Below, piece by piece: positions 31,435-47,862 of a stretch of 48,049 nt of DNA (positions within the stretch are counted from its first letter, which is position 1; the number at the start of each line of letters is the position of its first letter). The DNA comes from a virus. The stretch is from positions 1-48,049 of IMG/VR virus record IMGVR_UViG_3300037247_002298, one strand, 5' to 3'. The notes under the pieces were generated by a model. The model had not been told where the DNA came from. It did not search any database and worked only from the letters and a program-made list of their open reading frames with translations. The position numbers were made by a program, and so were the translations under genes.

Positions 31435-31455
31435 TGACAACACTGAGAAAACAAT

Positions 31456-31994: not shown

Positions 31995-31999
31995 AAAAT

Positions 32000-32385: not shown

Positions 32386-32399
32386 CAGTCTTTGATAAA

Positions 32400-33400: not shown

Positions 33401-33418
33401 TTACAACATATTCTAGTT

Positions 33419-33766: not shown

Positions 33767-33778
33767 TCTACCGCTCCA

Positions 33779-34096
33779 TCATCTAATCTCTGATGAATCT
33801 TTTTCTAGTATTCCAGAATTTTCTGCAGAATGAAAATGCCAAGGAATGTGCTCTAAGCAATAGTGACAACTACATATGCTGCATGGTTTATCTGGTTCCT
33901 CACTGCATCCCAGAATACCACAGAGTAACCCTTGAGCAGATAGATTCGACCATCTCAGTGCAGTTGCTAACAAGTCTTTAGGATCAATGTCATTTAGTCT
34001 CATCTGAGACTTTGGACTAAAATACACATACAGTTGACTGTCATGCTCTTTGAGAATTTTTTCAAATTGTTCTAGTCTGTTTGATCTTTGTTGCAC
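33779..34096 (-). CDS. Zinc-binding hypothetical protein
   Basis: 105 residues, ATG overlapping the stop of the preceding gene by one base. The N-terminal half is helical. The C-terminal half is rich in Cys and His (LLCGILGCSEE, KPCSICSCHYCLEHIPWHFH) and could bind two zinc ions. It forms a small minus-strand operon with the membrane protein upstream and the TIR-like gene downstream. Confidence 0.5.
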   Translation of the reverse strand: MQQRSNRLEQFEKILKEHDSQLYVYFSPKSQMRLNDIDPKDLLATALRWSNLSAQGLLCGILGCSEEPDKPCSICSCHYCLEHIPWHFHSAENSGILEKDSSEIR

Positions 34097-34752
34097 TACA
34101 CTCTAACCTTTGTGTCATTTGGATCAATAAATGCAATTGGCGGACAAATTTTAGAATGGTTTGTCTCAAGATATGCTTTAAGTAAACTTGGATTCTTTGG
34201 CATCTCTTTTTTTGTTGTTTGTTTTTTCTTTGGCCAATGATTTCTGATAAAGTTCACAAGTGGTTTGAATATTGGCACCATACATTTTTTCATTGGAGAT
34301 AATAGAAATTTGTTAACTTGTTTTGGATAATTAGGCAGTACACCAAATGTAAAAATTAACGCTGCACCTATGATGAGATCTGTTATCCCTACCCAATATT
34401 CTCCAAGTAGAAGATTAATTATTCCAATGAAAAATAGTACACTGCTTCCTATACATCGTATAATAAAACCACGTCTTTTGAGTCTCTTCATCACTTCTTC
34501 ATGTGTCATCTCTTTTCTTTCTTTATGTGGAAATAATCTCCAGACAAAAACAAATGGAAGAGATAATGTACTCCACAAAACTCCTCTACAGTACGGACAG
34601 AAATTTACAACCTTTGGTTTACGAGTCCACACCAAAGTTCCTGTTTTTTCAGATGCATCAAAATCAAGATTATCTTTTTCTGTGAAAAAATTCTCTCCAA
34701 AAACATACATGACTAATCTATAGTGCCAGGAATCAGTGTTAAACTGTAACAT
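34096..34752 (-). CDS. Two-helix membrane protein with CPYC motif
   Basis: 218 residues. A CPYC pair (NFCPYCRGVLW) near residue 52 is followed by a first hydrophobic stretch, a basic amphipathic segment, and two transmembrane helices at about residues 92-140 (CIGSSVLFFIGIINLLL and WVGITDLIIGAALIFTFGV). The C-terminal part is strongly basic. It would sit in the cell membrane with the Cys pair and basic tail inside. A role in lysis, membrane attachment of replication, or defence is possible; nothing selects among them. Confidence 0.55.
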   Translation of the reverse strand: MLQFNTDSWHYRLVMYVFGENFFTEKDNLDFDASEKTGTLVWTRKPKVVNFCPYCRGVLWSTLSLPFVFVWRLFPHKERKEMTHEEVMKRLKRRGFIIRCIGSSVLFFIGIINLLLGEYWVGITDLIIGAALIFTFGVLPNYPKQVNKFLLSPMKKCMVPIFKPLVNFIRNHWPKKKQTTKKEMPKNPSLLKAYLETNHSKICPPIAFIDPNDTKVRV

Positions 34753-34845
34753 GTGTTTTTCTTATTATTCTAATATGCTATATATTTTAACATTCGATAA
34801 TCACTGAACGTAATTTTAAAGATTTTTGAAACTATTATCAGAATA

Positions 34846-35145
34846 ATGAAAGAGACTAGAATAATGCATCATATGTGGAAGGAGATGGCCAGACTTCCGA
34901 AAAAGATGAGAGATGAGTTTAATGAAAAAATTCCGCCACTGCTTGGCAAATGGTATTACTATTATGAGAATGAAAACGGCAAGGTAGGTCTTGCGAGAAT
35001 TAATGATCTATGGGCATTCAAGGGAGAAAGAAAACATCACTATGAAGCCTGCGGCCATTTAGACTTTGAGAGGTTTGCAACAAAGAAGCAAGCAGAGATT
35101 GCAATTTACAAAGCACTAAAAGAAGAATACACAAAATATGACTAG
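34846..35145 (+). CDS. Hypothetical protein
   Basis: 99 residues. A TATA-like ATTTTAAAG lies about 28 nt before the ATG, without the late AATACC element, so its promoter is of another class. The sequence is basic, aromatic and alpha/beta (GKWYYYYENENGKVGLARIN, KKQAEIAIYKALKEE). It converges with the next minus-strand gene. No family recognised. Confidence 0.5.
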   Translation: MKETRIMHHMWKEMARLPKKMRDEFNEKIPPLLGKWYYYYENENGKVGLARINDLWAFKGERKHHYEACGHLDFERFATKKQAEIAIYKALKEEYTKYD

Positions 35146-35420
35146 TTAACAAATCCAGTATCTCCTAATGCCAAAGTCTCCCAAGGATGATCTTGAATGT
35201 ATTTGATGGCTTTATTCAATTTCTTAAAGACCAATACATTTGATCCAGTCTTCAAATTAATTACAGTATGAACTGTTTTGTTTTTAATATAATCAGGATT
35301 TTTCTGAAAACAGATAGGACAGCATGCATGATGTATTCGCAATGCCATCAGTCCTCTTACTTTATGACAATAGTGAATAAACATTCCATTTCCAACTATT
35401 GCAGTATCAGCATTTTTCAT
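35142..35420 (-). CDS. Small Cys-containing hypothetical protein
   Basis: 92 residues, ATG located inside the end of the gene upstream. It contains a CHKVRG and a HHACCPICFQK element that may form one zinc site. Its C-terminal half is alpha/beta. Co-transcribed with the zinc-ribbon gene at 35407-35748. Confidence 0.45.
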   Translation of the reverse strand: MKNADTAIVGNGMFIHYCHKVRGLMALRIHHACCPICFQKNPDYIKNKTVHTVINLKTGSNVLVFKKLNKAIKYIQDHPWETLALGDTGFVN

Positions 35421-35748
35421 GCTGACCTAATACCCATTCTAGGATAAATCTTTGTCCATCAGTTGATGCAACTTCAAATAATTGTCCTGGAGATAATTTA
35501 GCCATTTGTTTATTGAGTTCTTCGAATTTTTTTTCAATTTCAACTCTCGTTTTCATACCTTCTTTAATTTCAAGAGTAGGTGCTCGGCTCTTCATTTTCT
35601 GACCTTGAAAATCCAAGCTTACTACATTTTTGCTACACTTTTCACAAAACACTTGTAATCCATTTTTGGTCCATCCTACTGCCAATTGACCAGACAAACA
35701 ATCTGCACAATGAAAGTATCCACCAATCTCGGGGGCATTTCTAATCAT
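35407..35748 (-). CDS. Zinc-ribbon protein
   Basis: 113 residues. The N-terminus holds CADCLSG and CEKCSKN, a four-Cys ribbon of about 25 residues. A helical middle (MKTRVEIEKKFEELNKQMAK) and a strand-rich C-terminus follow. It overlaps the gene downstream by 14 bp. Likely a small nucleic-acid or protein-binding factor; no family recognised. Confidence 0.5.
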   Translation of the reverse strand: MIRNAPEIGGYFHCADCLSGQLAVGWTKNGLQVFCEKCSKNVVSLDFQGQKMKSRAPTLEIKEGMKTRVEIEKKFEELNKQMAKLSPGQLFEVASTDGQRFILEWVLGQHEKC

Positions 35749-35859
35749 TTCATAATCACTCTTAGTTTTTTCTTTACATGTTATTTTTATAAATTGTTAT
35801 AATGTATCAAAACAGACACTGTGTTCAATAGATGTTGAATTTCAATGACTGTTGAATCT

Positions 35860-35869
35860 AATACTAAAT
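35860..35869 (+). promoter_or_regulatory. Promoter of the Cys-rich protein gene
   Basis: AATACTAAAT centred exactly 28.5 nt before the ATG at 35893. It shares the AATAC part and the spacing with the late promoters but has a different TATA part. Confidence 0.5.
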
Positions 35870-35892
35870 AACTCATTAACAACTAATTTCCA

Positions 35893-36270
35893 ATGAGTAT
35901 TGAATATGAATTTGAGAGTGACATCAGCAAAATACCATTACCTGCTGGTCTTACTCTTGACAAAGATACACTAGATGCAATTCAAGCAGAAATGAAAGAG
36001 ATGTTTGGCTGCATAAGCCTAGGTCCACTTGAGTTATGTTATAGTAGACAAGGCGAAAATTTCAACATAAAGGTAAAGATCTTTGGAATTGTTGCTGGAA
36101 GTATGACATTAGGTCCAAGCAGAAATTGTCAAGGAATAGGTCTTGATTTATTCTTAGTAAGTGGATCTATAGAAATCTGCATAAGAGGCAGATGTCTTGT
36201 CTTAAATGGTAAAGTATGCAAATTTGGTTCCTGTACTAGATGGAATAATTTACAAATCGTTTGCTTCTAA
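35893..36270 (+). CDS. Cys-rich hypothetical protein
   Basis: 125 residues with eight cysteines, at positions 40, 49, 79, 96, 101, 109, 114 and 124, in a beta-rich Gly-containing context. The even spacing without CxxC pairs suggests disulfides rather than zinc, but there is no signal peptide. It is probably leaderless (promoter 28.5 nt upstream) and is followed by a T-run. No family recognised. Confidence 0.5.
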   Translation: MSIEYEFESDISKIPLPAGLTLDKDTLDAIQAEMKEMFGCISLGPLELCYSRQGENFNIKVKIFGIVAGSMTLGPSRNCQGIGLDLFLVSGSIEICIRGRCLVLNGKVCKFGSCTRWNNLQIVCF

Positions 36271-36274
36271 CCTT

Positions 36275-36284
36275 TCTTTTTTTT
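36275..36284 (+). terminator. T-run terminator
   Basis: A T-rich run with eight consecutive T begins a few bases after the stop of the Cys-rich gene. Confidence 0.45.
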
Positions 36285-36365
36285 AAAAAATTAAACTATA
36301 TGGTACCAATTCAATTAACAAGGCCCCGTCTCTTTTACGCAAATTTTTTTATCGCCCTTTAAGAT

Positions 36366-36482
36366 TTATTTAATTTTGCCTGTACCATTACAATTAACAC
36401 ATGCTGTATTTGTACAAACTGATCCTCTTCTCATATCACATGACGATACAACTCCAGTTCCATTACAATTAGTACATTTCAT
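36366..36482 (-). CDS. 38-aa DnaJ-like zinc-ribbon microprotein
   Basis: ATG at 36480-36482, stop TAA at 36366-36368. The peptide carries CTNCNGTG near its start and CVNCNGTG near its end, two copies of the CxxCxGxG motif that defines the DnaJ zinc finger, plus two further Cys between them. Two such motifs are enough for one zinc site. It follows the membrane protein gene by 12 bp in the same direction and is likely co-transcribed. A free-standing CxxCxGxG ribbon might act in protein folding or assembly; that is inference. Confidence 0.6.
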   Translation of the reverse strand: MKCTNCNGTGVVSSCDMRRGSVCTNTACVNCNGTGKIK

Positions 36483-36494
36483 AATTATTCTAAA

Positions 36495-36785
36495 TTAACA
36501 ATGCTTACCTGATGAAATATCACATAAAATTAAATTTAGTTTATCTATTTTATCATCGAGTTTTACTATAGTAGAATCTAATTTAGTTAAAGTATTATCA
36601 ATGTTTTCCATATTAGTATTCATTTCAGCAATGGCAACTGCATTGCTTTGAGTTGCTTCTGCATTAGCTGTAATAAATGGCATCATAATAGGTACCATTA
36701 CTGCAAGTAATGCCAACCCAATACTTAGTCCTGCAATAAAATGTTTAGTAGTACAAAATTTTTTGATACTGTTATTTGCTGACAC
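36495..36785 (-). CDS. Membrane-anchored coiled-coil protein
   Basis: 96 residues, GTG start 27.5 nt after the promoter at 36808-36817. One transmembrane helix at about residues 14-36 (FIAGLSIGLALLAVMVPIMM) is followed by a coiled coil with a clear heptad of Leu/Ile (LTKLDSTIVKLDDKIDKLN) and two terminal Cys. The topology is like that of small spanin- or holin-associated proteins, yet archaeal lysis genes are poorly known. Late expression, suggested by the promoter type, would fit lysis or virion release. Confidence 0.55.
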   Translation of the reverse strand: MSANNSIKKFCTTKHFIAGLSIGLALLAVMVPIMMPFITANAEATQSNAVAIAEMNTNMENIDNTLTKLDSTIVKLDDKIDKLNLILCDISSGKHC

Positions 36786-36807
36786 AATAATTTTTAAATT
36801 AACAAAT

Positions 36808-36817
36808 TAAAGGTATT
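36808..36817 (-). promoter_or_regulatory. Late-type promoter
   Basis: TAAAGGTATT on the plus strand, centred 27.5 nt before the GTG at 36785. Confidence 0.65.
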
Positions 36818-37476
36818 ATTCTATTGCAAGTAAACTGATGCTCGCATACTTTCAGATATCATTAACATTAAGAACCCTGTTAGAAATATTTCAGTAAATA
36901 TCAACTTACATTACCCAGGTTGGCCTTATTTTAAAAAGTTACTATATGGTACCCTCGCAGCCTTTCTAATCTGCAACTTGTAGGGGGTACCTTAGAGTCT
37001 CGGTAAATCTACTACGTCGTTATTGCTAATTAAAGTAGTGTCATAAATAATTGGTACATAGATCTCTCGTGTTATTATAGCCTAGGGCACCATAATTTCA
37101 AAATGTAATTGTATGGTACCAGAACTACATTGTATTATAATTAAGGGGGGGTACCTAAAATTAAAAAAGTAACCATATGGTACCAAGAGGATAATACAAG
37201 TCAACAAAGGGGTGGGGGTAATTTCAATCCGTTTCTACCTCTGTGTGTTGGATATGCGTTAGGAGTCCCTCACCTTATGACACTCCTTTTTTGACATGTT
37301 ACAATATTACAGAATTACCCGAGAGATAATTAATACAATCACGCATAAGATTTCCATGTTTTTAATAAAAGACATGACACGACCGTTAAGGTCATTTGAA
37401 CTGAATGATAAGGGGGGGATGGGGGTTAAAGCATGTCGCGCGGCCGTCACGTGTCAATATAGGACACTAAAACAAG
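36818..37476. other. Gene-poor region with GGTACC palindromes and G-runs
   Basis: No convincing gene in about 660 bp; a 62-codon plus-strand ORF at 37296-37484 looks spurious. GGTACC occurs at 36948, 36986, 37115, 37150 and 37179, arranged as TATGGTACC followed about 35 bp later by G-run plus GGTACC, twice, then a third TATGGTACC. G-runs of five or more (including GGGGTGGGGG and GGGGGGGATGGGGG) are all on the plus strand. A locally GC-rich patch lies at 37436-37456. Candidates are a replication origin or a structured RNA. Confidence 0.5.
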
Positions 37477-37590
37477 TCAATTAGGAGGGGATAAACCATA
37501 ACTATCAAAGGGATGACCGCAGATAAGACACTTTTTTAAATTCTCACTAAAGTGAGTTGTTTCACACTCTGGATTAATACAAGTCTGCAT
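37477..37590 (-). CDS. 37-aa zinc-ribbon microprotein
   Basis: ATG at 37588-37590, stop TGA at 37477-37479. The peptide contains CINPEC near its N-terminus and CLICGHPF in its middle, the spacing of a compact zinc ribbon in which the second pair is a typical zinc knuckle CxxCG. An AT-rich element ending in CCTTTAA lies about 30 nt upstream, similar to the leaderless promoters. The coding strand also has a CTCACTAAAGTGAG inverted repeat inside. Role unknown. Confidence 0.6.
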   Translation of the reverse strand: MQTCINPECETTHFSENLKKCLICGHPFDSYGLSPPN

Positions 37591-37800
37591 AGTATACCAG
37601 ATATAATTTATTTAATTAAAGGCCTGTGTGTGTATTATGAACATACATAATTTATGATCAATTATTGTCTATACTGATTTTAATTAATTCTCTATACGGT
37701 ATATTTTGAATAGTTGCAGGAATGAATTTTTAGATATTTTAATAAAATTTATCAAAGTTTTCATTTTATTATTAGGCATCAAAAAAAGTGTGTTATTATG

Positions 37801-37843
37801 GGTTATAGCATAACCTTATATGATCAAGGGTTATAATATAACC
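37801..37843 (+). promoter_or_regulatory. Early promoter with two GGTTAT-N3-ATAACC operators
   Basis: Two perfect 6-3-6 palindromes, GGTTATAGCATAACC at 37801-37815 and GGTTATAATATAACC at 37829-37843, flank a TATA-like TTATATG (37816-37822) centred 25 nt before the ATG at 37844. The second palindrome touches the start codon. This is the layout of a repressor-controlled leaderless archaeal promoter. Confidence 0.7.
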
Positions 37844-38011
37844 ATGATGAAAACAAACTCAGACATGATCGGATCCATCAAGTATTCAATTCAATTAATT
37901 GATGGTAAAGTGATCACAACAAAACAAAGAAAAAATACAGACTTATGCCCAATTTGTAAAAATGGCGCAAGCTGTGAAAACAGTTTCATACATGGGAGAA
38001 TGTGGACATAA
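37844..38011 (+). CDS. First gene of the early operon, small CxxC protein
   Basis: 55 residues. The ATG directly follows the second operator, as at the PCNA gene, so the transcript is probably leaderless; a start at 37820 would lie inside the operator region. It contains a single pair with a third Cys (LCPICKNGASC). The stop overlaps the next ATG (TAATG). Function unknown; its position suggests very early expression. Confidence 0.5.
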   Translation: MMKTNSDMIGSIKYSIQLIDGKVITTKQRKNTDLCPICKNGASCENSFIHGRMWT

Positions 38012-38358
38012 TGAAAGCTGATCAACTAATAGAAAAATGGATTGACAGTCTATGTCATGCTAACGCCAACTATCAAATGATAGTAATGGAGAAAATCGCC
38101 CAATATGAAAACGGGGCAAGCTTGGAAGTTTTACAAAACGCTCTAAGTCTAGCAAACCCATCAAAGACAGCCAAGTTTTTTAACAAAAATCATAGAGTCT
38201 TTGAAGTCTTAGAAAAGAAAGGCATGATCAAAGTAAGACAAGATCCAGAGGAAATTGTATTTATTTTGAACATTACAAAGCCAACAATTCAAGACAGACA
38301 AAAAGTAAGAAAGGCCGCAATTAAAGCCAGAAAAAAATACGAGGCTGATCATAAATGA
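38011..38358 (+). CDS. Possible winged-helix protein
   Basis: 115 residues from the ATG overlapping the preceding stop. Helices with the spacing of a winged-helix domain (ANYQMIVMEKIAQYENGASL, KFFNKNHRVFEVLEKKGMIKV) and a short strand hairpin (IKVRQDPEEIVFIL) precede a very basic helix at the C-terminus. As one of the first genes of an operator-controlled operon it is a reasonable candidate for the regulator of the palindromes, but no test is possible from sequence alone. Confidence 0.45.
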   Translation: MKADQLIEKWIDSLCHANANYQMIVMEKIAQYENGASLEVLQNALSLANPSKTAKFFNKNHRVFEVLEKKGMIKVRQDPEEIVFILNITKPTIQDRQKVRKAAIKARKKYEADHK

Positions 38359-38930
38359 TGAAAATGCCAGAGCCAGACGACAAAAGAATTAAGGAAATAT
38401 CCGAGGATATTCTAAAGTCTATGCTTAAGCGTAGTTTTCCAGCCGTAGACGCAACACACTTTTTTAAAAAATACGCAAATGGAAAAACTCCAGATCCTCA
38501 ATTTATGCATGCCTTGGCCATGATGGACAAAGGCGGCATACTAAGAATTGATCACACAAAAAAGCCTTTTTCTGTGACTTTTGTCTTGATGGAAGACGGC
38601 AAGCCAAAAATGCATCATATGATTGATGATGATTATGGATCCAAAACATTTGGATCTATGTTCAATGATCCATATGAAGGCGATAAAAAAAGAATTCATT
38701 GTTTCAGACATATTATGAATGATGAAAAGGCAAAAAATCCAGACTGTGAAAAATGCGAGCTTGAAGTAAATTCTCAAATCTGCATGCAACATGAAAACGT
38801 GTTAAGTGAATGTGTAGAATGCAAAGTTTCAAGCGAATTATTGAGAGGCGTAACACCAAAAGACAAAGCCCCCGAAATAATCACAGCTATTTTGAAAAAA
38901 TACAAAGCTGAATTTTGGAGGTATGCATAA
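38355..38930 (+). CDS. Zinc-containing hypothetical protein
   Basis: 191 residues; ATGA overlap with the previous gene. The N-terminal half looks helical, possibly with a winged-helix-like part (FKKYANGKTPDPQFMHALAM, KGGILRIDHTKKPFSVTFVL). Residues about 130-160 have CEKCE, a lone Cys and CVECK, a likely zinc site. It shares general design with the preceding protein. No family recognised. Confidence 0.5.
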   Translation: MMKMPEPDDKRIKEISEDILKSMLKRSFPAVDATHFFKKYANGKTPDPQFMHALAMMDKGGILRIDHTKKPFSVTFVLMEDGKPKMHHMIDDDYGSKTFGSMFNDPYEGDKKRIHCFRHIMNDEKAKNPDCEKCELEVNSQICMQHENVLSECVECKVSSELLRGVTPKDKAPEIITAILKKYKAEFWRYA

Positions 38931-38932
38931 AA

Positions 38933-39619
38933 ATGCCTGAAATTTGGTTATTCGGTGAGGCCTCAGTTAACACAGACAACAGCCCAAAGTCAGAATATAA
39001 GAAACTCTGGAATTGTGCTGAGAACTGCGGTTATTTTGTTGAGGCATTCAACGCAACAAAAAACAGATCAGCTCATATCATCGTGAATGGTGAAGACGTG
39101 CCAGACTCTTACATAATGGAAAGTGTTTTGAATTTCACACAAGAAAAAGGCAAGCCCGAAAAATTCACAAGTATTCAAAAGGTATTGTATAAAATATCTT
39201 ATGAAGGCCTAGGACGTGACCAAAAACAAATTAGAAAAATGGTCAAAGTCTTTAATTATTTGGGCGGTGAATTTGTTGAAATCTTTGATCAAGGAAAACA
39301 CGAAATTGATCTAAAAGGTCTGCCAAGTTATCAAAAGGCCTTAGCTCGTGAAGGCAAAAAAGATCATCCTCTTTACACTGGTAACGGTGTAGAAAAAAGA
39401 TCATGTACTTGCATAGATGGCGACAAATGCCCATATTTTGCATGCGTGAATTGTAAAAGTCAAGAAATTGAATTTTCAAATTACACGCATGGTTGTAAAA
39501 AATGCAATAGACTTCAAGACGTTAAAGTCTTAGACCCTTTTATTGTATGTGAGAAACACGGGAAATTTGACAGAGACGATCAAGAATGTCCAAAGTGTAC
39601 ACAGGAGTTTAACCAATGA
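38933..39619 (+). CDS. Multi-zinc-ribbon protein
   Basis: 228 residues from the ATG at 38933, 10 nt after a GGAGGT sequence. The first 140 residues are alpha/beta with a Cys pair early on. The last 75 residues contain at least three Cys pairs or clusters (CTCIDGDKC, CVNCKS, CKKCNR, CEKH, CPKC), so two or three zinc ribbons. Such arrays often bind nucleic acids or recruit transcription proteins. It sits in an operator-controlled early operon. Function unknown. Confidence 0.5.
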   Translation: MPEIWLFGEASVNTDNSPKSEYKKLWNCAENCGYFVEAFNATKNRSAHIIVNGEDVPDSYIMESVLNFTQEKGKPEKFTSIQKVLYKISYEGLGRDQKQIRKMVKVFNYLGGEFVEIFDQGKHEIDLKGLPSYQKALAREGKKDHPLYTGNGVEKRSCTCIDGDKCPYFACVNCKSQEIEFSNYTHGCKKCNRLQDVKVLDPFIVCEKHGKFDRDDQECPKCTQEFNQ

Positions 39620-40071
39620 CTTGGTTTAATGTCAAGTTCATCTTTGATAATGATGAAAAACAACATCTTTCATACTATGTTGAAGCTTCAGACATAATTG
39701 AAGCTGAAAACAAAGCTTTTGAAAAACTTGGTGAAAATGGCAAAAAACACAAAACAGCCGCAGAAATTACACCGATTGTCTTAAACGTGACACTTGGAAA
39801 ACCAGACAAAAAATATGATTCGTTTAAGGATCAAATGGCCGACGATCCAAAAATTGTCGAGCTTGCTTTCATGTATTTGAGAGGCTCAAAAATTGTCAAA
39901 AATGACATTGAAAAAGCTCTTAACATGATGTTTGAACCTTTGGGATCAGAGTATCAAAATCAAGCTATCATGACTTTGAAAATGATAGCTTCGTTAGGGG
40001 CATGTCATGACGTCCAAAAATATGGCAAGACAAAATATCTTGAGGACTGGTTAAAGGAGATGCAAAACTAA
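39616..40071 (+). CDS. Hypothetical early protein
   Basis: 151 residues with ATGA overlap. An N-terminal strand-rich part (WFNVKFIFDNDEKQHLSYYV) and a helix are followed by a mostly helical half (IVELAFMYLRGSKIVKNDIE). The first strands with an EASDIIEAENKAFEKLG helix resemble a small ferredoxin-like fold, but I cannot name a family. Confidence 0.5.
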   Translation: MTWFNVKFIFDNDEKQHLSYYVEASDIIEAENKAFEKLGENGKKHKTAAEITPIVLNVTLGKPDKKYDSFKDQMADDPKIVELAFMYLRGSKIVKNDIEKALNMMFEPLGSEYQNQAIMTLKMIASLGACHDVQKYGKTKYLEDWLKEMQN

Positions 40072-40547
40072 TGGGTTTTTCATATAGTGCATATGGCCTT
40101 TGTTGTGATTTTTGCGGATCAGATCACACCACAAGAAAATATGTAAGAAAAATTGCATGTCCTTATGAATATTGTCAATCATGGGCATGTTGTGATCAAT
40201 GCAGAGCAGCAAAAAAACACATGGCTTCAAGTTGTACACCAGAAAACAAAACGCATAAAGAATTTTGTAAAAAAGCTAGTGAAGAACATGACAAAAAAGA
40301 GCAGCAAAAACAAAATATTCTAAATGAAGGATATTTCATAAGATGCGCGGCTTTATCTCATGGCGTGGATAAAGTCAAAGTTATTTTTAGAAATAAAGAT
40401 GACTTAGAAAAAGCTGCTTTTATGACACATGCAGCTTATGACAAAATTCCGTTAGGAATAACGGCAAAGCTTGAAGACTATGAAATAAGCTTCATGGCAA
40501 AAAACACAGACATTTACGACGCTGAAGCAATGGAGGCTCAAGCATGA
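40071..40547 (+). CDS. Cys-rich zinc protein
   Basis: 158 residues, ATG overlapping the preceding stop. The first 65 residues hold CCDFCGS, CPYEYCQSWACCDQC and further Cys/His, enough for two zinc ions in a cross-brace or B-box-like arrangement. A charged helix follows (CKKASEEHDKKEQQKQN), then an alpha/beta C-terminal part. It may be a protein-interaction factor. No firm family. Confidence 0.5.
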   Translation: MGFSYSAYGLCCDFCGSDHTTRKYVRKIACPYEYCQSWACCDQCRAAKKHMASSCTPENKTHKEFCKKASEEHDKKEQQKQNILNEGYFIRCAALSHGVDKVKVIFRNKDDLEKAAFMTHAAYDKIPLGITAKLEDYEISFMAKNTDIYDAEAMEAQA

Positions 40548-40966
40548 ATCAAATCTTTGAAGTCTTAGTGTATACACACAAAGAAGATCAAGACGGGGCT
40601 TATGGTGAAGCTGACAACGAAATAGGATTCGACAGTTTAGAAAAAGCTGAAGAATATTATTTCAATGTAAGGTATTACTTTGGAAAACAGCTCATGCAAT
40701 ACGAATCCTTAGAAAGTGATGCAGATGGCCAAGTAATACACGAAGATCATCATGATGAAGACTTGAGCGAACGATCTTTTACAGTCACTAAGATTGATGT
40801 TTTAGCGACTTGTGAAGTAAATCTAGACGAATCAGATCTTGTTGAGCTAAATGGCCTAAGTCAAGAAGAAATCAACGAGAAAATTCAAGAGCATGCAATA
40901 AATTCAGACATGTGGCGAATTGTTGAATCTGAAGAAAATGTATCCTATGAGGTAGATGAATCATGA
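40544..40966 (+). CDS. Acidic hypothetical protein
   Basis: 140 residues, ATGA overlap with both neighbours. Very acidic, with a His/Asp-rich patch (VIHEDHHDEDLSE) and a helical C-terminal half. Strongly acidic small viral proteins sometimes mimic DNA, but here there is no specific evidence. Function unknown. Confidence 0.5.
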   Translation: MNQIFEVLVYTHKEDQDGAYGEADNEIGFDSLEKAEEYYFNVRYYFGKQLMQYESLESDADGQVIHEDHHDEDLSERSFTVTKIDVLATCEVNLDESDLVELNGLSQEEINEKIQEHAINSDMWRIVESEENVSYEVDES

Positions 40967-41316
40967 AATCATTTAGATTCTATATCGACATTGATGCAGA
41001 AAACGAAGAGCAAGCAAGGCAGCAGTTATACGAAGACATGCAAACTTTGCCGCTTTGTGATATGTTCGTAGAGGTAAAACCTAGCCAGCAGATCAGTTAT
41101 GAAGAGGCCAAAGAAATCTTTGGATTTGAAAACAAATACGACGCATACAACAAAATCGTAAATCACTTTTATGATTATGATGCGTATTTGTGTAAACATT
41201 GTGCTAGTGATGTTGGCAACGATACCAAAGACATGATCAGACACTTGATGACACACACAAAAGAAGAATTGAAAAAGACTAATGACGGTGATGACTTTGA
41301 GGAGGAGGAAAATTGA
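40963..41316 (+). CDS. C2H2 zinc-finger protein
   Basis: 117 residues with ATGA overlap. Residues about 75-97 carry a classical C2H2-type finger (CKHC, then IRHLMTH). The N-terminal half has strand-helix-strand character, and the C-terminus is acidic (DGDDFEEEEN). Single C2H2 fingers are common in archaeal viruses, where they bind DNA. Its stop overlaps the next gene's TTG start. Confidence 0.6.
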   Translation: MKSFRFYIDIDAENEEQARQQLYEDMQTLPLCDMFVEVKPSQQISYEEAKEIFGFENKYDAYNKIVNHFYDYDAYLCKHCASDVGNDTKDMIRHLMTHTKEELKKTNDGDDFEEEEN

Positions 41317-41684
41317 CTGAAGAAAAATATACAATTAGTCAAGTTTTCCATGCCGCATCAATAGTCAGAGAACAAATGTCAGAAAATCAATTTGACTCTG
41401 ATGACTTTGATGACAAAGAATTTGAAGTAATGGTTTCTGATGTTTTAGAATACCATTGGGATTTTAAGACAAAGGAAAAACGTTATGAAATTCTAACAAC
41501 AGACAACAGCTGCATTTATGAAAAAATCAAGAGACTTTCTGGAATGCAAGGCGGCCAATCTGAGAATGAAATAATTGAAGACATTGCATCAAGTAGTTTA
41601 CATGATCAATCACTCTTTGATGAATTAGAGTCTTATCTAATTCCTGAAACACATGATGCAGAACTAATGGAGGTGAAAAATTGA
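41313..41684 (+). CDS. Hypothetical early protein with coupled TTG start
   Basis: 123 residues. The TTG start overlaps the preceding TGA (TTGA) and is preceded 4 nt upstream by GGAGGAGG, a strong Shine-Dalgarno, so coupled translation is likely. The sequence is acidic and helical, with no motif. Its stop in turn overlaps a TTGA start of the next gene. Confidence 0.5.
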   Translation: MTEEKYTISQVFHAASIVREQMSENQFDSDDFDDKEFEVMVSDVLEYHWDFKTKEKRYEILTTDNSCIYEKIKRLSGMQGGQSENEIIEDIASSSLHDQSLFDELESYLIPETHDAELMEVKN

Positions 41685-41884
41685 TCATGGATAATTTGAT
41701 TGAGGGAATTTTTACCCTCATTCAAAAAGATGATGAGGATCCATTAAAACAAAGTGCACAGCTTGAAGCACTCTATGAAATATCTACAGACACACAGAAA
41801 AAAGCCATTGATAACGCGTTTATTTGTCTCTGTGGTTATTCATTGGATACCATTCTAAACAATCCTGAAGAAATTCAGATTTAA
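41681..41884 (+). CDS. Small GYSL-family protein, copy 1
   Basis: 67 residues. The TTG at 41681 overlaps the previous stop and is placed well behind GGAGGTGA; an ATG at 41687 is the alternative. The C-terminal half (CLCGYSLDTILNNPEEI) is nearly the same as in the protein at 44882-45100 (CISGYSLETIINHPENI), so the virus carries two members of an unknown small family. It ends the first early operon and is followed by a T-run terminator. Confidence 0.55.
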   Translation: MIMDNLIEGIFTLIQKDDEDPLKQSAQLEALYEISTDTQKKAIDNAFICLCGYSLDTILNNPEEIQI

Positions 41885-41905
41885 TTTTTTTTTTGTATTT
41901 TTTTA
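41885..41905 (+). terminator. T-run terminator of the first early operon
   Basis: Two T-runs of about ten and seven, separated by a GTA, follow the stop at 41884. Confidence 0.55.
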
Positions 41906-41919
41906 ATAATACAATGAAT

Positions 41920-41963
41920 GGTTATTACATAACCTTCTTATAATACACGGGTTATCATATAAC
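41920..41963 (+). promoter_or_regulatory. Early promoter with two operators before PCNA
   Basis: GGTTATTACATAACC at 41920-41934 and GGTTATCATATAAC at 41950-41963 flank a TATA-like TTATAATA (41938-41945). The second palindrome runs into the ATG at 41964, whose A replaces the last base. The layout is the same as at 37801-37843. Confidence 0.7.
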
Positions 41964-42770
41964 ATGATGAAAAACCAACAAATTGAAGAACTAGAAGAAA
42001 GTGTATTTTTAGAAAGCTCTGAAATAGTTCAAGTTAGTTTCAAAACTGACAAAGCAACATTATTGCAAATAGCAAAAACTACTGAATGTATGTATGATGA
42101 AGCAACATTCACCATAGATGAAGAGGGTTTATCCTATAGAATGATGGATCCTAGTCATGTTTCATTGGCAGACATTGGAATACCAAATAGCTGCTTTGAG
42201 ACATGGTCATGCATTGAAAAACAAGTCTTTGCCCTCAATATTGAGGAATTCAGAAAGCTTGTAAATTCTTTGGATGCAAAAGGATCAATCAAAGTCGAAA
42301 TACAAAATGAGAAAATCCTTGTCACACAAAATGGTTTTCAAGCATCAATGAAAACAATTGAACCAAGCACAACTGATGTGCCATTACCACACATTCCATA
42401 TGATAGCACAATGGTTTTTTCAGAAAATGAAGAAATCAGCACAATGGAATTTGTCAGAACAATCCGCAAAATTGCAACAGTAAGCGATTATGTCACAATA
42501 GATTGTAATGACGAAAAAGTAATTTTGAGCGGTAAAGGAGACAATGGAGAATCTCAAAAGACTTTTTCAAAAGATCAATTTGAGCTCAGAAATCGCAATG
42601 ACTCTGAGACTACATACAGTCTAGAATATCTCATGCCATTTTTGAGAACTTTGAGCAAAGATTCTCAAATTGAGATTGGATTTAGCACAGCAAAGCCACT
42701 AAGAATCCAGACAAGAGTTAACAATCTAGGTAGAATAGATATCTATCTTGCACCAAGGGTGGAGAATTAA
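41964..42770 (+). CDS. pcn: PCNA sliding clamp
   Basis: 268 residues of archaeal/eukaryotic PCNA type. The signature YRMMDPSHVSLADI lies at about residues 58-72, the interdomain region is at about 120-140, and the C-terminus ends IDIYLAPRVEN, matching the usual APR ending. PCNA rings tether replicative polymerases, ligase and nucleases to DNA. The N-terminus is about 20 residues longer than usual. No polymerase is encoded in the window, so the clamp probably works with the host polymerase. It has its own operator-bearing promoter and a hairpin terminator. Confidence 0.92.
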   Translation: MMKNQQIEELEESVFLESSEIVQVSFKTDKATLLQIAKTTECMYDEATFTIDEEGLSYRMMDPSHVSLADIGIPNSCFETWSCIEKQVFALNIEEFRKLVNSLDAKGSIKVEIQNEKILVTQNGFQASMKTIEPSTTDVPLPHIPYDSTMVFSENEEISTMEFVRTIRKIATVSDYVTIDCNDEKVILSGKGDNGESQKTFSKDQFELRNRNDSETTYSLEYLMPFLRTLSKDSQIEIGFSTAKPLRIQTRVNNLGRIDIYLAPRVEN

Positions 42771-42787
42771 TTCTCCATTCTTTTTTT
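42761..42787 (+). terminator. Hairpin plus T-run after PCNA
   Basis: GGAGAATTAATTCTCC is a perfect 16-bp palindrome spanning the PCNA stop codon, followed by ATTC and seven T. Confidence 0.6.
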
Positions 42788-42797
42788 GGTGATTGAT

Positions 42798-43040
42798 ATG
42801 ACAGAACCAATTGTCTTATGGTACAAAAAAACTTTGAAAAAAACGGGCAAGCCAATAATTGTGCAACAAGGTAAAGGAAAAAACCTCAAAGAATTTCAAG
42901 TGGCCTCATTTAAGCTCAATAAATGCAGAATTGAAATGTCCTTTAATAATTCAGTAGGAAAACCTAAAGCAGCAGGTGCATCAACTGTGTTGTATGTATA
43001 TCCGCTCAATGGTGAAACAATAGAGGAGTTGTGCAAATGA
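42798..43040 (+). CDS. Small hypothetical protein
   Basis: 80 residues from the ATG at 42798, 5 nt after GGTGA. Earlier TTG or GTG codons lie in the terminator hairpin region and are unlikely. It is a basic alpha/beta sequence (KKTGKPIIVQQGKGKN, RIEMSFNNSVGKPKAAGAST). Its stop overlaps the next ATG. Function unknown. Confidence 0.5.
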   Translation: MTEPIVLWYKKTLKKTGKPIIVQQGKGKNLKEFQVASFKLNKCRIEMSFNNSVGKPKAAGASTVLYVYPLNGETIEELCK

Positions 43041-43375
43041 ATATCAAAGATCCCAAGGTAGTTTTACAATGGCTTTTGGATAACGAACTTGTAACAACTA
43101 GATTTTTCAAGAAATACCAAGAGCAAATTATTGAGATAACAGAGTTTGGAATTACTATCAATGAATTGATGAACAAGCTTAAAGAAGGATCAAAGGCAGA
43201 TAAAGAAACTGAGAAATTCATGAAGGAAGTTGATGAAAATCCATATGATTCGCCTCCAAAAACTAAAGAATTGTTGCAAATTCTAGTCAAAGATATTCGA
43301 GACATTCCAGACGGGGACGTGGATAGATATTTAATTATTGATGAGATTAAAAAAATCATCAAAAATATCAAATGA
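43037..43375 (+). CDS. Helical hypothetical protein
   Basis: 112 residues from the ATG in the ATGA overlap at 43037. It is nearly all helix with many charged residues (FGITINELMNKLKEGSKADK, RYLIIDEIKKIIKNIK). It belongs to the PCNA-downstream group of genes. No family recognised. Confidence 0.5.
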   Translation: MNIKDPKVVLQWLLDNELVTTRFFKKYQEQIIEITEFGITINELMNKLKEGSKADKETEKFMKEVDENPYDSPPKTKELLQILVKDIRDIPDGDVDRYLIIDEIKKIIKNIK

Positions 43376-43403
43376 TTATATATCTAAGGGTGATAATATA
43401 ACC
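43376..43403 (+). promoter_or_regulatory. Early promoter with one operator
   Basis: TATA-like TTATATATC at 43376-43384 and a one-mismatch copy of the palindrome, GGTGATAATATAACC, at 43389-43403, directly before the ATG at 43404. Confidence 0.6.
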
Positions 43404-43526
43404 ATGAGTCTTAAAATTATAAAATGTGTTTGTGGCAATCAATATGCATCAAAAAAGAATTCCAAAGCCAAATTAATTCATGAGCGGCCTCAATGTGTAG
43501 TTTGTGGTAAAAGGGAATACAAATGA
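43404..43526 (+). CDS. 40-aa zinc-ribbon protein
   Basis: The ATG at 43404 directly follows the operator, so the message is probably leaderless. CVCGNQYA and CVVCGKREY give a compact four-Cys ribbon like those in small archaeal translation and transcription proteins. Its stop overlaps the next ATG (ATGA). Confidence 0.55.
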   Translation: MSLKIIKCVCGNQYASKKNSKAKLIHERPQCVVCGKREYK

Positions 43527-43777
43527 CTAGACACAATATTCTTTTGGAAATCACAACCAAAAACAAGGGAATTTTAGGACAAGTGGCACTTGACATGATA
43601 GAAGTCAACTTTAAGAAACATGACTCAATTCTTGTATTTTGGAAAAGAAAGGGAGAAAAGATTCGTGTTCTCTCGACTTACTCTGAAATCATGGAGGCAG
43701 TTGATCCAAAAAGATTAACAAACTATCAAAAAAGCGTCATACAATACAGGAGAATCAAAAATAATGACAGGAACTAA
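43523..43777 (+). CDS. Hypothetical protein
   Basis: 84 residues, ATGA overlap. It begins with a strand (HNILLEITTKNKGILG), then a helix and a basic strand pair (HDSILVFWKRKGEKIRVL), then a helix. It resembles a small nucleic-acid-binding alpha/beta protein but has no recognised motif. Confidence 0.5.
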   Translation: MTRHNILLEITTKNKGILGQVALDMIEVNFKKHDSILVFWKRKGEKIRVLSTYSEIMEAVDPKRLTNYQKSVIQYRRIKNNDRN

Positions 43778-43874
43778 ATTTCAATATTGTAAAAAATGCG
43801 TTCGATTTACTTTGCATAGCTGGACAGGGCAGGCAGCTTATGACGGTGAACTAGAATGCACAGAACACAATTAA
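43764..43874 (+). CDS. 36-aa zinc-ribbon microprotein
   Basis: ATG at 43764-43766, inside the end of the previous gene, and TAA at 43872-43874. It carries CKKC near the start and a Cys and His near the end (LECTEH), a plausible C3H or C4-like zinc site. A short T-run follows. It is the last gene of the operon. Confidence 0.5.
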   Translation: MTGTKFQYCKKCVRFTLHSWTGQAAYDGELECTEHN

Positions 43875-43889
43875 TTTTTTAATGAGATA

Positions 43890-44729
43890 TTATTCTACTG
43901 TGCAACTCTCACCACAATAATCCTCGTTAACATCAAATTTTTCCAGTGTTGTTTGTAATTCGGAATAATTTGCACCAACTGATCTGCCCCAATGTGGGAA
44001 TTTTTTTGCCTCTTTAGTACCGTTAAGTTGTACTTCTTTCTCTAATGATTTTATGGTGTTAAAAACAAATGGATCATACTTTTCTAACATCTTTAATTCC
44101 CATTCGTTATAGAAACACCCACACCAACATTCACCTGATTTATCAAAGTATTCATAGGCAGGTGTTTTCTTCAATCCATTTTTTATAAAATATTCCATTA
44201 ACTGTGTCCCATTTTTGTATAAGAATGGTTTTGCAAATGTCATTGTTGCGTTAATGTCTATTGGTTTTTTAGTGTAAAATCTGACTTTATTTCTTGCCCA
44301 TGATTCTTTTTTTCTAACACCTGAAATAAATGCAGATGTTTTCTTTACACTTCTAATGAAATAATACCAAGATTGGAATTTCAGATAACCCATTACAACC
44401 CTATGTGATCCAGGATTTGGAAATCCATGTTGCATTACAATATCACGGTATGATTTTCTTGCCCATGTAAAATACAATTTCCAATTCATTTCTTTACAAT
44501 AATCTAATACAAATTTTCTAGTAATTGGTGATGCAATACCTGTGTTTGTAAAAACAACACCTTTGAAATGTTCAGGATAATTTTCAGCAATATAATGTGC
44601 AACACACGCAGAATCCTTACCACCTGAATACAGTACATAAAAATCAGTTTTCTTGTGATTGTTAATTAAATCATCCATTATTTCCTCAGGCGACTGAGGT
44701 TCTAACCAGACCAAATCCTGATCAGACAA
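43890..44729 (-). CDS. PAPS-reductase-family PP-loop protein
   Basis: 279 residues. The PP-loop YSGGKDSA at about residues 35-42 is the ATP-pyrophosphate binding signature of the PAPS reductase/DndC/ThiI superfamily. It is followed by VVFTNTGIASP, typical of PAPS reductases. A C-terminal Cys cluster (GECWCGCF and YCGESC) might hold an iron-sulfur cluster or zinc. TTG start behind GGAGG, with a late-type promoter at 44786-44795. Candidate jobs are sulfur transfer to nucleic acid (as DndC does) or nucleotide chemistry; the substrate is unknown. Confidence 0.7.
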   Translation of the reverse strand: MSDQDLVWLEPQSPEEIMDDLINNHKKTDFYVLYSGGKDSACVAHYIAENYPEHFKGVVFTNTGIASPITRKFVLDYCKEMNWKLYFTWARKSYRDIVMQHGFPNPGSHRVVMGYLKFQSWYYFIRSVKKTSAFISGVRKKESWARNKVRFYTKKPIDINATMTFAKPFLYKNGTQLMEYFIKNGLKKTPAYEYFDKSGECWCGCFYNEWELKMLEKYDPFVFNTIKSLEKEVQLNGTKEAKKFPHWGRSVGANYSELQTTLEKFDVNEDYCGESCTVE

Positions 44730-44785
44730 TTATTTTGCCTCCAAAAATAAATAAGACTGCAATAATGATTAGCTGAAATTTTCCT

Positions 44786-44795
44786 TAAAGGTATT
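44786..44795 (-). promoter_or_regulatory. Late-type promoter of the PP-loop gene
   Basis: TAAAGGTATT on the plus strand. Here the start codon is about 60 nt away and has its own Shine-Dalgarno, so the message has a short leader. Confidence 0.55.
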
Positions 44796-44881
44796 TTGAA
44801 TATTTAATAAAGTGTACATATTGGCATCCATATTATGAAAAAAATTCCGCCCTCCTATTATACTAGAAATTTCTTACAAGT

Positions 44882-45100
44882 ATGAATATGAAAGATCCTA
44901 GTGCTATTGAGATAATCCATAAACTCATTAAAAATAAAACTAAAAATTTGGATATAGGTAATGAGCTTTTGATTCACTATTATACAAATGCAAAACCTGA
45001 TGAACAAAAAATTATTGATACAATTATGGTTTGTATTTCTGGTTATTCGCTGGAGACAATTATCAACCACCCAGAGAACATAAAGAAGTTTGACTCCTAA
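44882..45100 (+). CDS. Small GYSL-family protein, copy 2
   Basis: 72 residues with a TATA-like TATTATAC about 28 nt before the ATG. It is the paralogue of the protein at 41681-41884: both have an acidic helical N-terminal half and end with the CxxGYSL-TI-N-PE-I motif. The family is unknown to me. Divergent from the PP-loop gene and convergent with the next minus-strand gene. Confidence 0.55.
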   Translation: MNMKDPSAIEIIHKLIKNKTKNLDIGNELLIHYYTNAKPDEQKIIDTIMVCISGYSLETIINHPENIKKFDS

Positions 45101-45105
45101 AAATT

Positions 45106-45405
45106 TTATTGAATAAGATTAATTTTTGGTTTTTGTCTTCCAAGTATTACATAGTTCAGATCATCTGATGAAATAAATGGATCTTTATGAGAATCAATTA
45201 ATCTTTTCATTTCTAGTGTTGCCTTTATCATTGGCTCTGAGCGTTCTATTTGTCCTATGATCTGATATGAATTTCTACAAATTGAATCAATTATTTTTTG
45301 TTGTGTCTTTGTGTATGGAGTATGCAATAAAATAATTCTAACACTTTTGTCTTTTAACAAATCTTTGATAATATTCAAGTGATAATAAAACTCAGGATTA
45401 TCCAT
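45106..45405 (-). CDS. Hypothetical protein
   Basis: 99 residues from an ATG 6 bp after a perfect 18-bp palindrome. The sequence is alpha/beta (VRIILLHTPYTKTQQKIID, MIKATLEMKRLIDSHK). It follows the repeat array on the same strand and could be cotranscribed with it. No family recognised. Confidence 0.45.
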   Translation of the reverse strand: MDNPEFYYHLNIIKDLLKDKSVRIILLHTPYTKTQQKIIDSICRNSYQIIGQIERSEPMIKATLEMKRLIDSHKDPFISSDDLNYVILGRQKPKINLIQ

Positions 45406-45411
45406 GTTTTT

Positions 45412-45429
45412 TTAGAAATTAATTTCTAA
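45412..45429. promoter_or_regulatory. Perfect 18-bp palindrome
   Basis: TTAGAAATTAATTTCTAA is identical on both strands. It sits between the repeat array and the gene starting at 45405, 6 bp before that ATG, which suits an operator. On the minus strand it is followed by A, not T, so it is not a standard terminator. Confidence 0.5.
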
Positions 45430-45486
45430 TAAGATTGTCTTTAATCGTTGTCGAATCAGAAAAAAATTAGGCACTAAGACTTTATT

Positions 45487-46049
45487 GGGTTTCATTATAA
45501 CCATGGCTCGTACAATATGTATGGGTTTCAGCCCCTGTATGACTCGAATATTGGATATGGGTTTCATGGATATGGTGTCTCGTTTGGTTTGCAAGGGTTT
45601 CAAATTACTGTTTGACTCGAATGTATGCCATAGATTTCATATTGATGATGTCTCGTATCCTCTATCGGGGTTTCAATTGTAGTTTGACTCGTATCATTAA
45701 TCTGGGTTTCAGTAATGAGTTGACTCGTACCACTCAGGTGGGTTGCTTTCTTTTCCTGACTCGTAATCGTACTGTGGATTTCACACATTTCGTGACTCGT
45801 ACTATCTATTTGGTTTTCAGTGTTATGATAACTCGTACTCACTTAATGGGTTTCAGAGATGTCTGACTCGATTTTCTTTAATGGGTTTCAGAGTTATGGT
45901 GTCTCGTTTTGATTATATGGTTTCCAACAGCTTGATTAACTCGTATGTATTATATGGGTTTCAAGTATTGTTAACTCGCAAACTTTCTTTGGGTTTCACT
46001 TAATAGTGGCTCGTACCTAAATGTTGGATTTCAAATGTATGTTGACTTC
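45487..46049 (-). repeat. TIGR-like array: 15 units of about 36 bp plus a degenerate end unit
   Basis: On the plus strand each unit reads GGGTTTCA, 8-10 variable bases, TGACTCG (A at position 3 may be T or G; G at 2 may be A), then exactly 12 bases that often begin TA and end T. Units start at 45487, 45523, 45559, 45595, 45632, 45668, 45704, 45740, 45776, 45812, 45848, 45883, 45919, 45956 and 45991; the end unit starts at 46026. Ten of the fifteen are 36 bp, the rest 35 or 37. The variable segments differ in every unit. The array lies 4 bp beyond the stop of the Nop-like gene, on whose strand it is probably transcribed. Strand is inferred. Confidence 0.8.
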
Positions 46050-46052
46050 ACC

Positions 46053-47021
46053 TCAGTCATCTGTAAATGCTTCAACTACACTATGATTTAACAATTGTTT
46101 TGCATAAGGTTCTGTAGCTTCTAATCCTTCCTGTCTTCTCCAGGTTTGCCAAAGATGTGCAAGAAATATCTTTACTACTTTACGCATTGCTCGATTATGC
46201 AAATGCCCATCATTGAAATATACTTTAGAGTTTTTTGTTATTCTTTTAGGATGCAATTTGTGCTCTTCTTTTTTTATTTTGTCATAGAGTTTCCTGTATT
46301 TTGATCTTGATGGTGATTGTTTTACAAAAGACATCCCTGCTTTCCATCCAAGAACTTTGAGTTTGTCATTCCAGTTTGATTGATATCCTGAAATTCTTTT
46401 TTGTACAATTGGATTTGTTTCATGTCCACATATAGGACAATTTTGATGAGGATGAAGCTTCTTGGCTTTTTTGCCAGTGCTATATTCTACTTCAAGAAAT
46501 GTTGGTTTTTTGCATTCAGGACAATATCTATTCATTCCATAACCACAATATTGCCACAAGCTGCTAACATGACCAAATTTTTCAATATCATCAATGTATG
46601 CAATTAATCCTGCTGCAAGCATTGGTCCTATGCCTGTAATTTTTACTAGATATTGATTGTATAATGCGTGATTTTTTAGTTGTTTTCTGATTAGACTATC
46701 AATATCTTTCTCAAAGGATTGTGCATTCTCAAAGATTGTAGTGATTCCATAAATGGATAATTCATCTTTAGTTAGTGAATGATCACGCTCTGATGCACCT
46801 ATCCTAAGCTGTGTTTGAATTCTTTGTGATTGAAAATCATAATACATATCGACTAGAGTTCGCAGTAAATACGGAGGAACTTTATCTGTATCCTTGAATG
46901 GAATTGGGACATCTTTCTTTTTTGAAACTTTCTTTACTGTCTTTTTCTTGACTGTCTTTTTCTTTACAGTCTTTTTCTTTACAGGTTTTTTCTTCATAGT
47001 TTTACTCTTGGTCTTTGACAA
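46053..47021 (-). CDS. tas: Tas-like (IS110-HhH/Nop-type) RNA-guide-binding protein without nuclease
   Basis: 322 residues, TTG start behind GGAGAAAGGAA, overlapping the upstream gene by 20 bp. Residues 1-36 are a Lys-rich tail with repeats. Residues about 48-120 are helical. Residues 125-162 hold the helix-hairpin-helix of the IS110 transposase C-terminal domain (LVKITGIGPMLAAGLIAYID, then WQYCGYG). A four-Cys zinc insert follows (C167, C170, C195, C198) and then a basic helical C-terminus. The DEDD/RuvC catalytic domain of IS110 is absent and no HNH is visible. Together with the adjacent array this fits a nuclease-less TIGR-associated protein (TasA type). A decayed IS110 transposase is the alternative. 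Confidence 0.7.
   Translation of the reverse strand: MSKTKSKTMKKKPVKKKTVKKKTVKKKTVKKVSKKKDVPIPFKDTDKVPPYLLRTLVDMYYDFQSQRIQTQLRIGASERDHSLTKDELSIYGITTIFENAQSFEKDIDSLIRKQLKNHALYNQYLVKITGIGPMLAAGLIAYIDDIEKFGHVSSLWQYCGYGMNRYCPECKKPTFLEVEYSTGKKAKKLHPHQNCPICGHETNPIVQKRISGYQSNWNDKLKVLGWKAGMSFVKQSPSRSKYRKLYDKIKKEEHKLHPKRITKNSKVYFNDGHLHNRAMRKVVKIFLAHLWQTWRRQEGLEATEPYAKQLLNHSVVEAFTDD
46936..46980. repeat. Three 15-bp tandem repeats
   Basis: ACTGTCTTTTTCTTG-type unit repeated three times within the start of the tas-like gene, encoding the repeated KKKTV tail. Likely slippage-expanded low complexity. Confidence 0.7.
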
Positions 47022-47862
47022 TTCCTTTCTCCAAATTTAATCCAATCTTTGGTGATGCTCTATCTATAATAAAATGATAGATGCCTCGCATGGCATGATT
47101 ATCTCTTTTCTCTGCTAAATCCTGAATCTTTTGTGATTTTGTCAAGATTGCTCCGAGTTTAATCATATCAGCTTCTTCAATGTTATTTTCATAATAAACC
47201 CTAAAGAAATTTCTCATTATTGTGTAATGATAAAATATGGAATCTGGATTTGTTGCAACCTGATAAAGAATTGGAATGAATTTTCTGATGGTTGCGATAT
47301 CTCTTGTAGTAATGGACTGGATAAAATCATCAATTGCTAATGGCCTTACAGATCTAATTGATGTGGATTTTGCATAATGCAGACAGTTAATCACTGTTGC
47401 ATATCGCAGCTTGCTTCCTTTGGTGTAATGATCACAATATTCTCTTAGTTCATCGAAGAATTTGTTGTTGCCATGATCAAGTGCTTTGAGATGATCAGAT
47501 AGTGTTAATGGTTTTCCCAAGTTTAGTCTGCGATAAATTTCTCTTTTATCTCCGCCTATGTAAATAAACAAAATTAGATCATATGTTGCAAGATTCCAAT
47601 AGTCTCTTGCATAACGAAGTCCTTCTATCCTATGTTGTCCATCAATTACAACATATTTCACAGAACCTTTGGACTCAACTAAACGTAAAACATTATCAGT
47701 AAATTTATTTTCCAAAATGGCATGTGAAATTTTATGAACTTTTTGTTTTGATACACGTCTTTCAAAATCGGCATATTGAAAAGTTTCCTCAATTTTTGAT
47801 AGGTCAAAATCCTTGAGAACAACTATCTTAGCCTCGGGCGGCATGTAAACAGTTTTCTTCAA
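47002..47862 (-). CDS. DGQHR/ParB-like protein
   Basis: 286 residues, TTG start with a TATA-like AATAAATA about 28 nt upstream. The motif YVVIDGQHRIEGLRYA at residues 70-85 is that of the DGQHR/ParB-N superfamily, and NLGKPLTLSDHLKALD agrees with the following conserved part. Relatives include DndB-type regulators and ParB-like CTPases or nucleases. The C-terminal 150 residues are helical. It overlaps the tas-like gene by 20 bp, so the two are surely co-expressed. Its role in the locus is unknown. Confidence 0.7.
   Translation of the reverse strand: MKKTVYMPPEAKIVVLKDFDLSKIEETFQYADFERRVSKQKVHKISHAILENKFTDNVLRLVESKGSVKYVVIDGQHRIEGLRYARDYWNLATYDLILFIYIGGDKREIYRRLNLGKPLTLSDHLKALDHGNNKFFDELREYCDHYTKGSKLRYATVINCLHYAKSTSIRSVRPLAIDDFIQSITTRDIATIRKFIPILYQVATNPDSIFYHYTIMRNFFRVYYENNIEEADMIKLGAILTKSQKIQDLAEKRDNHAMRGIYHFIIDRASPKIGLNLEKGIVKDQE

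Follow-up and report, generated by a model that had tools for sequence, protein, structure and literature searches.

The IMG/VR virus record IMGVR_UViG_3300037247_002298, of which the whole 48,049-nt stretch is called the window below, carries what we hold with high confidence to be a TIGR-TasA-TasParB system (TIGR, tandem interspaced guide RNA) of a tailed archaeal virus, acting by the mechanism proposed below. The locus has an operon-like order on one strand, tasParB - tasA - array, Table 1. Faure et al. (2025, Science, PMC12045711) have already reported TIGR systems from archaeal viruses, as well as operons of tasParB and tasA that have dual-repeat arrays, and an earlier reading of the window made from its letters alone (the sequence-only reading) thus overstated the case in calling the archaeal-virus occurrence a notable extension. 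What is new is that guide pairs are common to related viruses, together with comparative evidence on guide architecture and seed.

Parsing of the repeats confirmed what the sequence-only reading had described, an alternation of two short repeats and two variable segments. Each unit consists, on the minus strand, of an edge repeat NNCGAGNCA, a 9-nt spacer A, a loop repeat TGAAANCCA and a 9-nt spacer B; the edge and loop repeats are each 9 nt long, and the length of spacer A ranges from 8 to 10 nt while spacer B stays at 9 nt. The measured edge-to-edge distances (36, 35, 35, 37, 36, 35, 36, 36, 36, 36, 36, 36, 37, 36 and 36) bear out the claimed units of 35-37 bp, ten of fifteen being exactly 36. 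A segment said to be always 12 nt long is indeed constant but has a different length, 11 nt from the loop repeat to CGAG wherever both repeats fit the pattern, and it comprises the 9-nt spacer B and the start of the edge repeat. Strand and limits had also been left to correct: the array lies on the minus strand, like the gene, and runs from 46051 to about 45477. The array is real, as the alternating-repeat chain reached a best score of 183.5 on the minus strand, compared with 7 on the plus strand and 8 elsewhere in the window; no shuffle control exceeded 8 when the whole window was shuffled (20 times) or 8.5 when the array region alone was shuffled (300 times). The folding energy of the array RNA is ordinary (z 0.11), which is expected of a TIGR array of the dual-repeat and not the stem-loop type, and the array has no match in Rfam. 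The T7 run behind it is a candidate terminator, presumably of the archaeal type given what is established about archaeal termination.

In the TasR ribonucleoprotein, base pairs form between box C in one edge repeat and box D in the edge repeat that follows (PMC12045711). We compared nucleotide 7 of each upstream edge with nucleotide 2 of the downstream edge; since edge positions 1, 2 and 7 are unconstrained in the array parser, covariation between them is not built in. The two nucleotides can pair in 15 of 15 window units (p 1.5e-4); in the four units that lack the common U-A pair, it is replaced by A-U (three) or C-G (one). Pairing is likewise found in 150 of 158 units of the relatives (null 119) and in all 19 units of each of two further arrays, L196 and L200. 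The G6-C3 pair is invariant in the units tested, and positions 7 and 2 inside one edge repeat pair at chance level. This covariation fixes the strand, the borders of the units and the guide RNA's two-edge architecture, and shows that the array is a maintained one; it is the strongest evidence that the array offers for its TIGR identity.

The gene product also points to a TIGR-Tas system. TasA scored 180.4 bits against the curated NCBIfam model NF052498 (TIGR_Tas_endo; cut-off 100), so that the hidden Markov model search upheld its assignment as a Tas-type protein, and profile comparison with the PDB matched TasR (9MTY, E 3e-33) and TasH (E 3e-12). The IS110 model NF033542 gave only 31 bits (cut-off 140), and Pfam Transposase_20 was also matched. 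The sequence-only reading saw in the gene an IS110 helix-hairpin-helix region without its nuclease; the missing nuclease stands, whereas the product is in reality a complete Tas protein that contains an inserted zinc ribbon. Family-model searches of TasA found no nuclease family match (RuvC or HNH): the stretch before the coiled coil is short (about 50 residues), rich in Lys and variable, in contrast to TasR and TasH, where a nuclease domain stands before the Nop domain. TasA is thus classed, from its sequence, as a solo Nop domain without nuclease, and the suggestion that such a protein binds and does not cut is a fair one. An alignment with 11 relatives (A1; 71-77% identity) keeps the four cysteines of the zinc ribbon (Cys167, 170, 195 and 198, in a CxxC...CxxC arrangement), and the ribbon sits exactly between the two stretches of TasA that align with TasR. 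The AlphaFold model of TasA was poor (pLDDT, the per-residue model confidence, 51) with no structural match in the PDB and speaks neither for nor against this assignment. The ATG start of tasA is probably at 46997, directly past the tasParB stop.

The first gene of the operon, which the sequence-only reading overlooked, encodes a ParB-like protein. It has a DGQHR motif and matches the ParB-like PHROG 1033 (E 4e-5); its AlphaFold model (pLDDT 85.5) matches Noc/ParB structures of the PDB in Foldseek (E 2.6e-4, probability 1.00). A homologue lies upstream of tas in nine of the first ten relatives, the tenth being cut by the contig end, and also in G016, G019 and G020; overall, nearly all relatives with a long enough contig have it beside tas. 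By fold, PHROG and context, set beside the published description only, we identify the product as the putative TasParB of Faure et al. (2025). A second, diverged ParB-like gene is present in G016 (3034-3852, 39% identical) and in G019 (36508-37233, 31%), both from viruses that carry the TIGR-Tas system.

Table 1. Coordinates of the TIGR-Tas locus and of other features in the window.
Feature	Position	Strand	Basis or remark
Terminase large subunit	29400-31205	+	PHROG 675, E 4e-27; tas operon directly behind it in most relatives, not in the window
PCNA sliding clamp	41964-42770	+	Pfam PCNA_N/PCNA_C above cut-off
T7 run behind the array	45460-45466	-	Sequence
TIGR dual-repeat array, 15 full units and a terminal one	45477-46051	-	Repeat parsing, shuffle scores, edge C/D covariation 15/15
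Last loop repeat, TGAAACCCA	45486-45494	-	Repeat parsing
First edge repeat, degenerate (5' truncated type), GTGAAGTCA	46043-46051	-	1-2 nt past the tas stop codon
tasA, nuclease-less Tas (Nop/IS110-type RNA-binding) protein, 322-aa product	46053-47021	-	NCBIfam, PDB matches, alignment of relatives
Zinc-ribbon insertion in TasA	46416-46529	-	Four Cys invariant in 11 relatives
tasParB, ParB-like protein, 286 aa from TTG, first operon gene	47002-47862	-	Motif, PHROG, fold, synteny

A search of IMG/VR gave 13 further records with a Tas protein 69-78% identical. Arrays with the same repeats follow tas on the same strand in most relatives, and in nearly all of those with a complete locus, so similar arrays do adjoin homologous genes in other viruses. 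At least 9 records have the order terminase - tasParB - tas - array, and some relatives have a second array, either between the terminase and tasParB or farther away; G016 carries two arrays. The tas operon lies elsewhere, and in the opposite direction, in the window and in G007, where the cassette has apparently been relocated. In the window it stands about 16 kb from the terminase and is inverted (29400-47862, compared with G003, G010 and others), and that of G007 is also away from the terminase. In G009 (L046, 300-1457), at the end of the contig, the array is flanked by two tas pieces in opposite orientation, the result of either misassembly or an inversion. The first unit after tas occurs in two alternative conserved forms, ACATACATT/ACATTTAGG or AAAAACTTT/AGGATTAGT, with this conservation seen in G000, G008 and G016 and in G002, G003, G005, G009 and G010, which suggests a fixed guide at the leader end. 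A scan with the repeat pattern added the arrays of L196, a contig whose terminase is only 43-49% identical, and of L200 (5285-6940), a GC-rich (54%) virus with a matching repeat consensus and a solo Tas that is 28% identical and has no zinc ribbon. No ParB was seen within the stretch of L200 that was read; by its sequence L200 probably represents a separate lineage with this type of array.

Taken with the matches to NF052498, TasR and TasH, the edge C/D covariation of the dual-repeat array and the arrays beside homologous genes support the TIGR-Tas identity first proposed from the letters. The locus agrees with the TIGR-TasA-TasParB system of Faure et al. in its solo Nop-type Tas, its ParB-like partner in an operon and its dual-repeat array with a 36-nt unit, as well as in the C/D motifs at both repeats, the edge C/D pair between successive edges and the truncated first edge repeat. 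It differs in the zinc-ribbon insertion of TasA, unmentioned in the main text of that paper (PMC12045711), in a T-run in place of a rho-independent terminator, and in that guides are common here to several viruses and the family consists of PCNA-encoding tailed viruses. The closest solved relative by sequence is 9MTY, the TasR of a Thermoproteota archaeon (TaTasR; accession confirmed in PMC12045711), which shares the UG...CCA loop motif (TGAAANCCA in the window) and, unlike the window protein, carries a RuvC nuclease at its N-terminus. As a similar array Faure et al. cite an earlier one, from Acidianus tailed spindle virus (Hochstein 2016; PMC12045711, ref. 39), which we liken to the window array by their description only.

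In the mechanism that we propose, the order within a unit, which the sequence shows, is box C (edge), spacer A, loop repeat, spacer B and box D (next edge). By homology with the known systems, the array transcript would be cut inside the edge repeats to give 36-nt TIGR RNAs (tigRNAs), a TasA dimer would hold one tigRNA through its two C/D motifs, and spacer A would pair with one DNA strand and spacer B with the other, at adjoining 9-bp half-sites. The nuclease-less complex might then bind and bend the DNA, stop transcription or replication, or load a ParB clamp at the site.

IS110 recombinases and archaeal box C/D small ribonucleoproteins share with the window system a Nop-type RNA-binding domain and box C/D logic, and each suggests another identity for the locus. 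A cluster of box C/D small RNAs borrowed from the archaeal host, guiding 2'-O-methylation of RNA, would have both C/D-like motifs and a Nop-related protein, a likeness that reflects shared ancestry (Faure et al. 2025, PMC12045711). TasA, however, matches the Tas models with no match to Nop5, the array has neither an Rfam match nor a stable fold, its compact 9+9 dual repeats are without k-turn sequences, and no fibrillarin-type effector or L7Ae is present among the scanned proteins, though no search was aimed at either, so that we find such a cluster hardly credible. The probability that the locus is an IS110-type transposon with a bridge RNA is close to nil: Transposase_20 and the IS110 match far under its cut-off would fit one, but the Tas model is far stronger, there is no DEDD transposase (RuvC) domain in the roughly 50 residues before the coiled coil, and the locus has a tandem array of many different guides and no bridge RNA. 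CRISPR was rejected as the identity of the array.

To compare guides, a shared guide pair was defined as a match between records with at most 2 edits per spacer, with random re-pairing of A and B spacers as the control. About 250 guide pairs were parsed in all. There are 94 shared pairs between records, compared with 2-5 in shuffles; the window takes part in 12 and L196 in 10 (shuffles 0-1 for each). Sharing spans 14 parsed arrays among G000-G020 (e.g. G001:4294-4770, G010:29547-31161 and G019:27322-27835) and L196:1725-2443, and one pair, CGAAATGTG/CAGTATGAT, occurs in six records including the window (the unit with its loop repeat at 45783). Changes at spacer positions 1-9, counted along linking trees, number 2, 3, 12, 3, 3, 11, 7, 5 and 16. 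Positions 3, 6 and 9 thus take 39 of 62 substitutions (p 2e-6, an optimistic value because the test was chosen after the pattern had been seen), and positions 4-5 take 6 of 62; the pattern is present in both spacers. Positions 4-5, which are A-rich (53% compared with 35% elsewhere), would be the biochemical TasR seed, adjoining the cut according to the C-5 rule, by our derivation from published TasR data. The guides thus seem, from their pattern of change, to be selected for target pairing, and the pattern at 3, 6 and 9 can reflect either poor reading of every third base or coding targets that are held, with a gap of 2 bp, in one fixed codon register.

Faure et al. (PMC12045711) state that neither the natural targets nor the source of TIGR spacers is known. 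Among the window's own and sister virus records (19-21 including the window), true A/B pairs matched no better than mispaired controls in either order of the half-sites, and a test of A followed by the reverse complement of B, with gaps of -1 to 3 and with and without tolerance at positions 3, 6 and 9, was likewise equal to controls. IMG/VR scans with four shared guides returned scattered or redundant unrelated contigs; the L066 match, in a bacterial-type phage integrase and in the predicted frame (QYDRTFR), was judged to be due to chance. The coding-phase idea gave no signal when the gap was set to 0 or left unspecified; frame 1 with a gap of 2 bp gave a synonymous share of 0.53 compared with 0.36 expected (z 3.0, the best of 18 models compared), and stop-codon depletion was weak after homologous guides were collapsed.

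Several points weigh against a working, guide-directed TIGR-TasA-TasParB system. No convincing archaeal-virus target came out of the IMG/VR scans, some of the guide sharing could stem from inheritance or from array recombination and not from target selection, the functions of TasA and TasParB are predicted ones, and processing to 36 nt is argued by homology, the sequence itself giving only the unit length of 36. The array as a relic whose shared guides reflect recent common descent alone would agree with the array segments common to neighbouring records, e.g. G001 and G004. It is nevertheless very unlikely, given edge C/D pairing kept by compensatory changes, substitutions that avoid the seed and cluster at 3, 6 and 9, and the recurrence of the same guides in L196 despite its distant terminase. 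Competition between mobile genetic elements, as proposed by Faure et al. (PMC12045711), would be in keeping with guides directed at the virus's own genes, for their regulation, or at sister viruses, as a superinfection exclusion within the family; with true pairs no better than mispaired ones in those very records, we think it improbable.

For the TIGR-TasA-TasParB system we somewhat favour, by elimination, conserved sequences of a shared host, or of rival elements in that host, as targets, because diverged viruses carry the same guide pairs and contain no match to them. A narrower proposal, which we put forward as doubtful, is that the shared guides target conserved host protein-coding genes, with half-sites 2 bp apart and one fixed codon register, so that the poorly read positions 3, 6 and 9 fall on wobble positions, TasA loading a ParB clamp there in a sequence-programmed gene silencing or chromosome takeover. 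The codon register in particular is a suggestion only, as plain mismatch tolerance at 3, 6 and 9 accounts for the same data.

An archaeal host is likely because the window encodes PCNA, and the archaeal virus of the sequence-only reading is, from PCNA and terminase, a probable assignment and not a settled one. The terminase matches in the phage collection are mostly to phages of Bacillus and other Firmicutes at about 23-27% identity, the same collection gave no matches for portal and capsid, and no relatives of Tas or PCNA were found in the genome contigs searched. Elsewhere in the window, a PAPS-reductase-like gene (43890-44729; PHROG 424, Pfam PF01507) is a candidate auxiliary metabolic or DNA-modification gene, and a virion module (26945-28754) contains two neighbouring proteins with beta-propeller features, one with NHL repeats by Pfam (26945-28138) and one similar by eye only (28182-28754).

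Guides that recur in diverged viruses, and the way they change, show which guide positions matter, and lend comparative support to the seed at positions 4-5 and to the edge C/D pair outside E. coli and outside TasR. If the codon-register proposal were true, silent mutations of the host could not easily escape the guides. With one host genome, what nuclease-less TIGR systems bind becomes testable.
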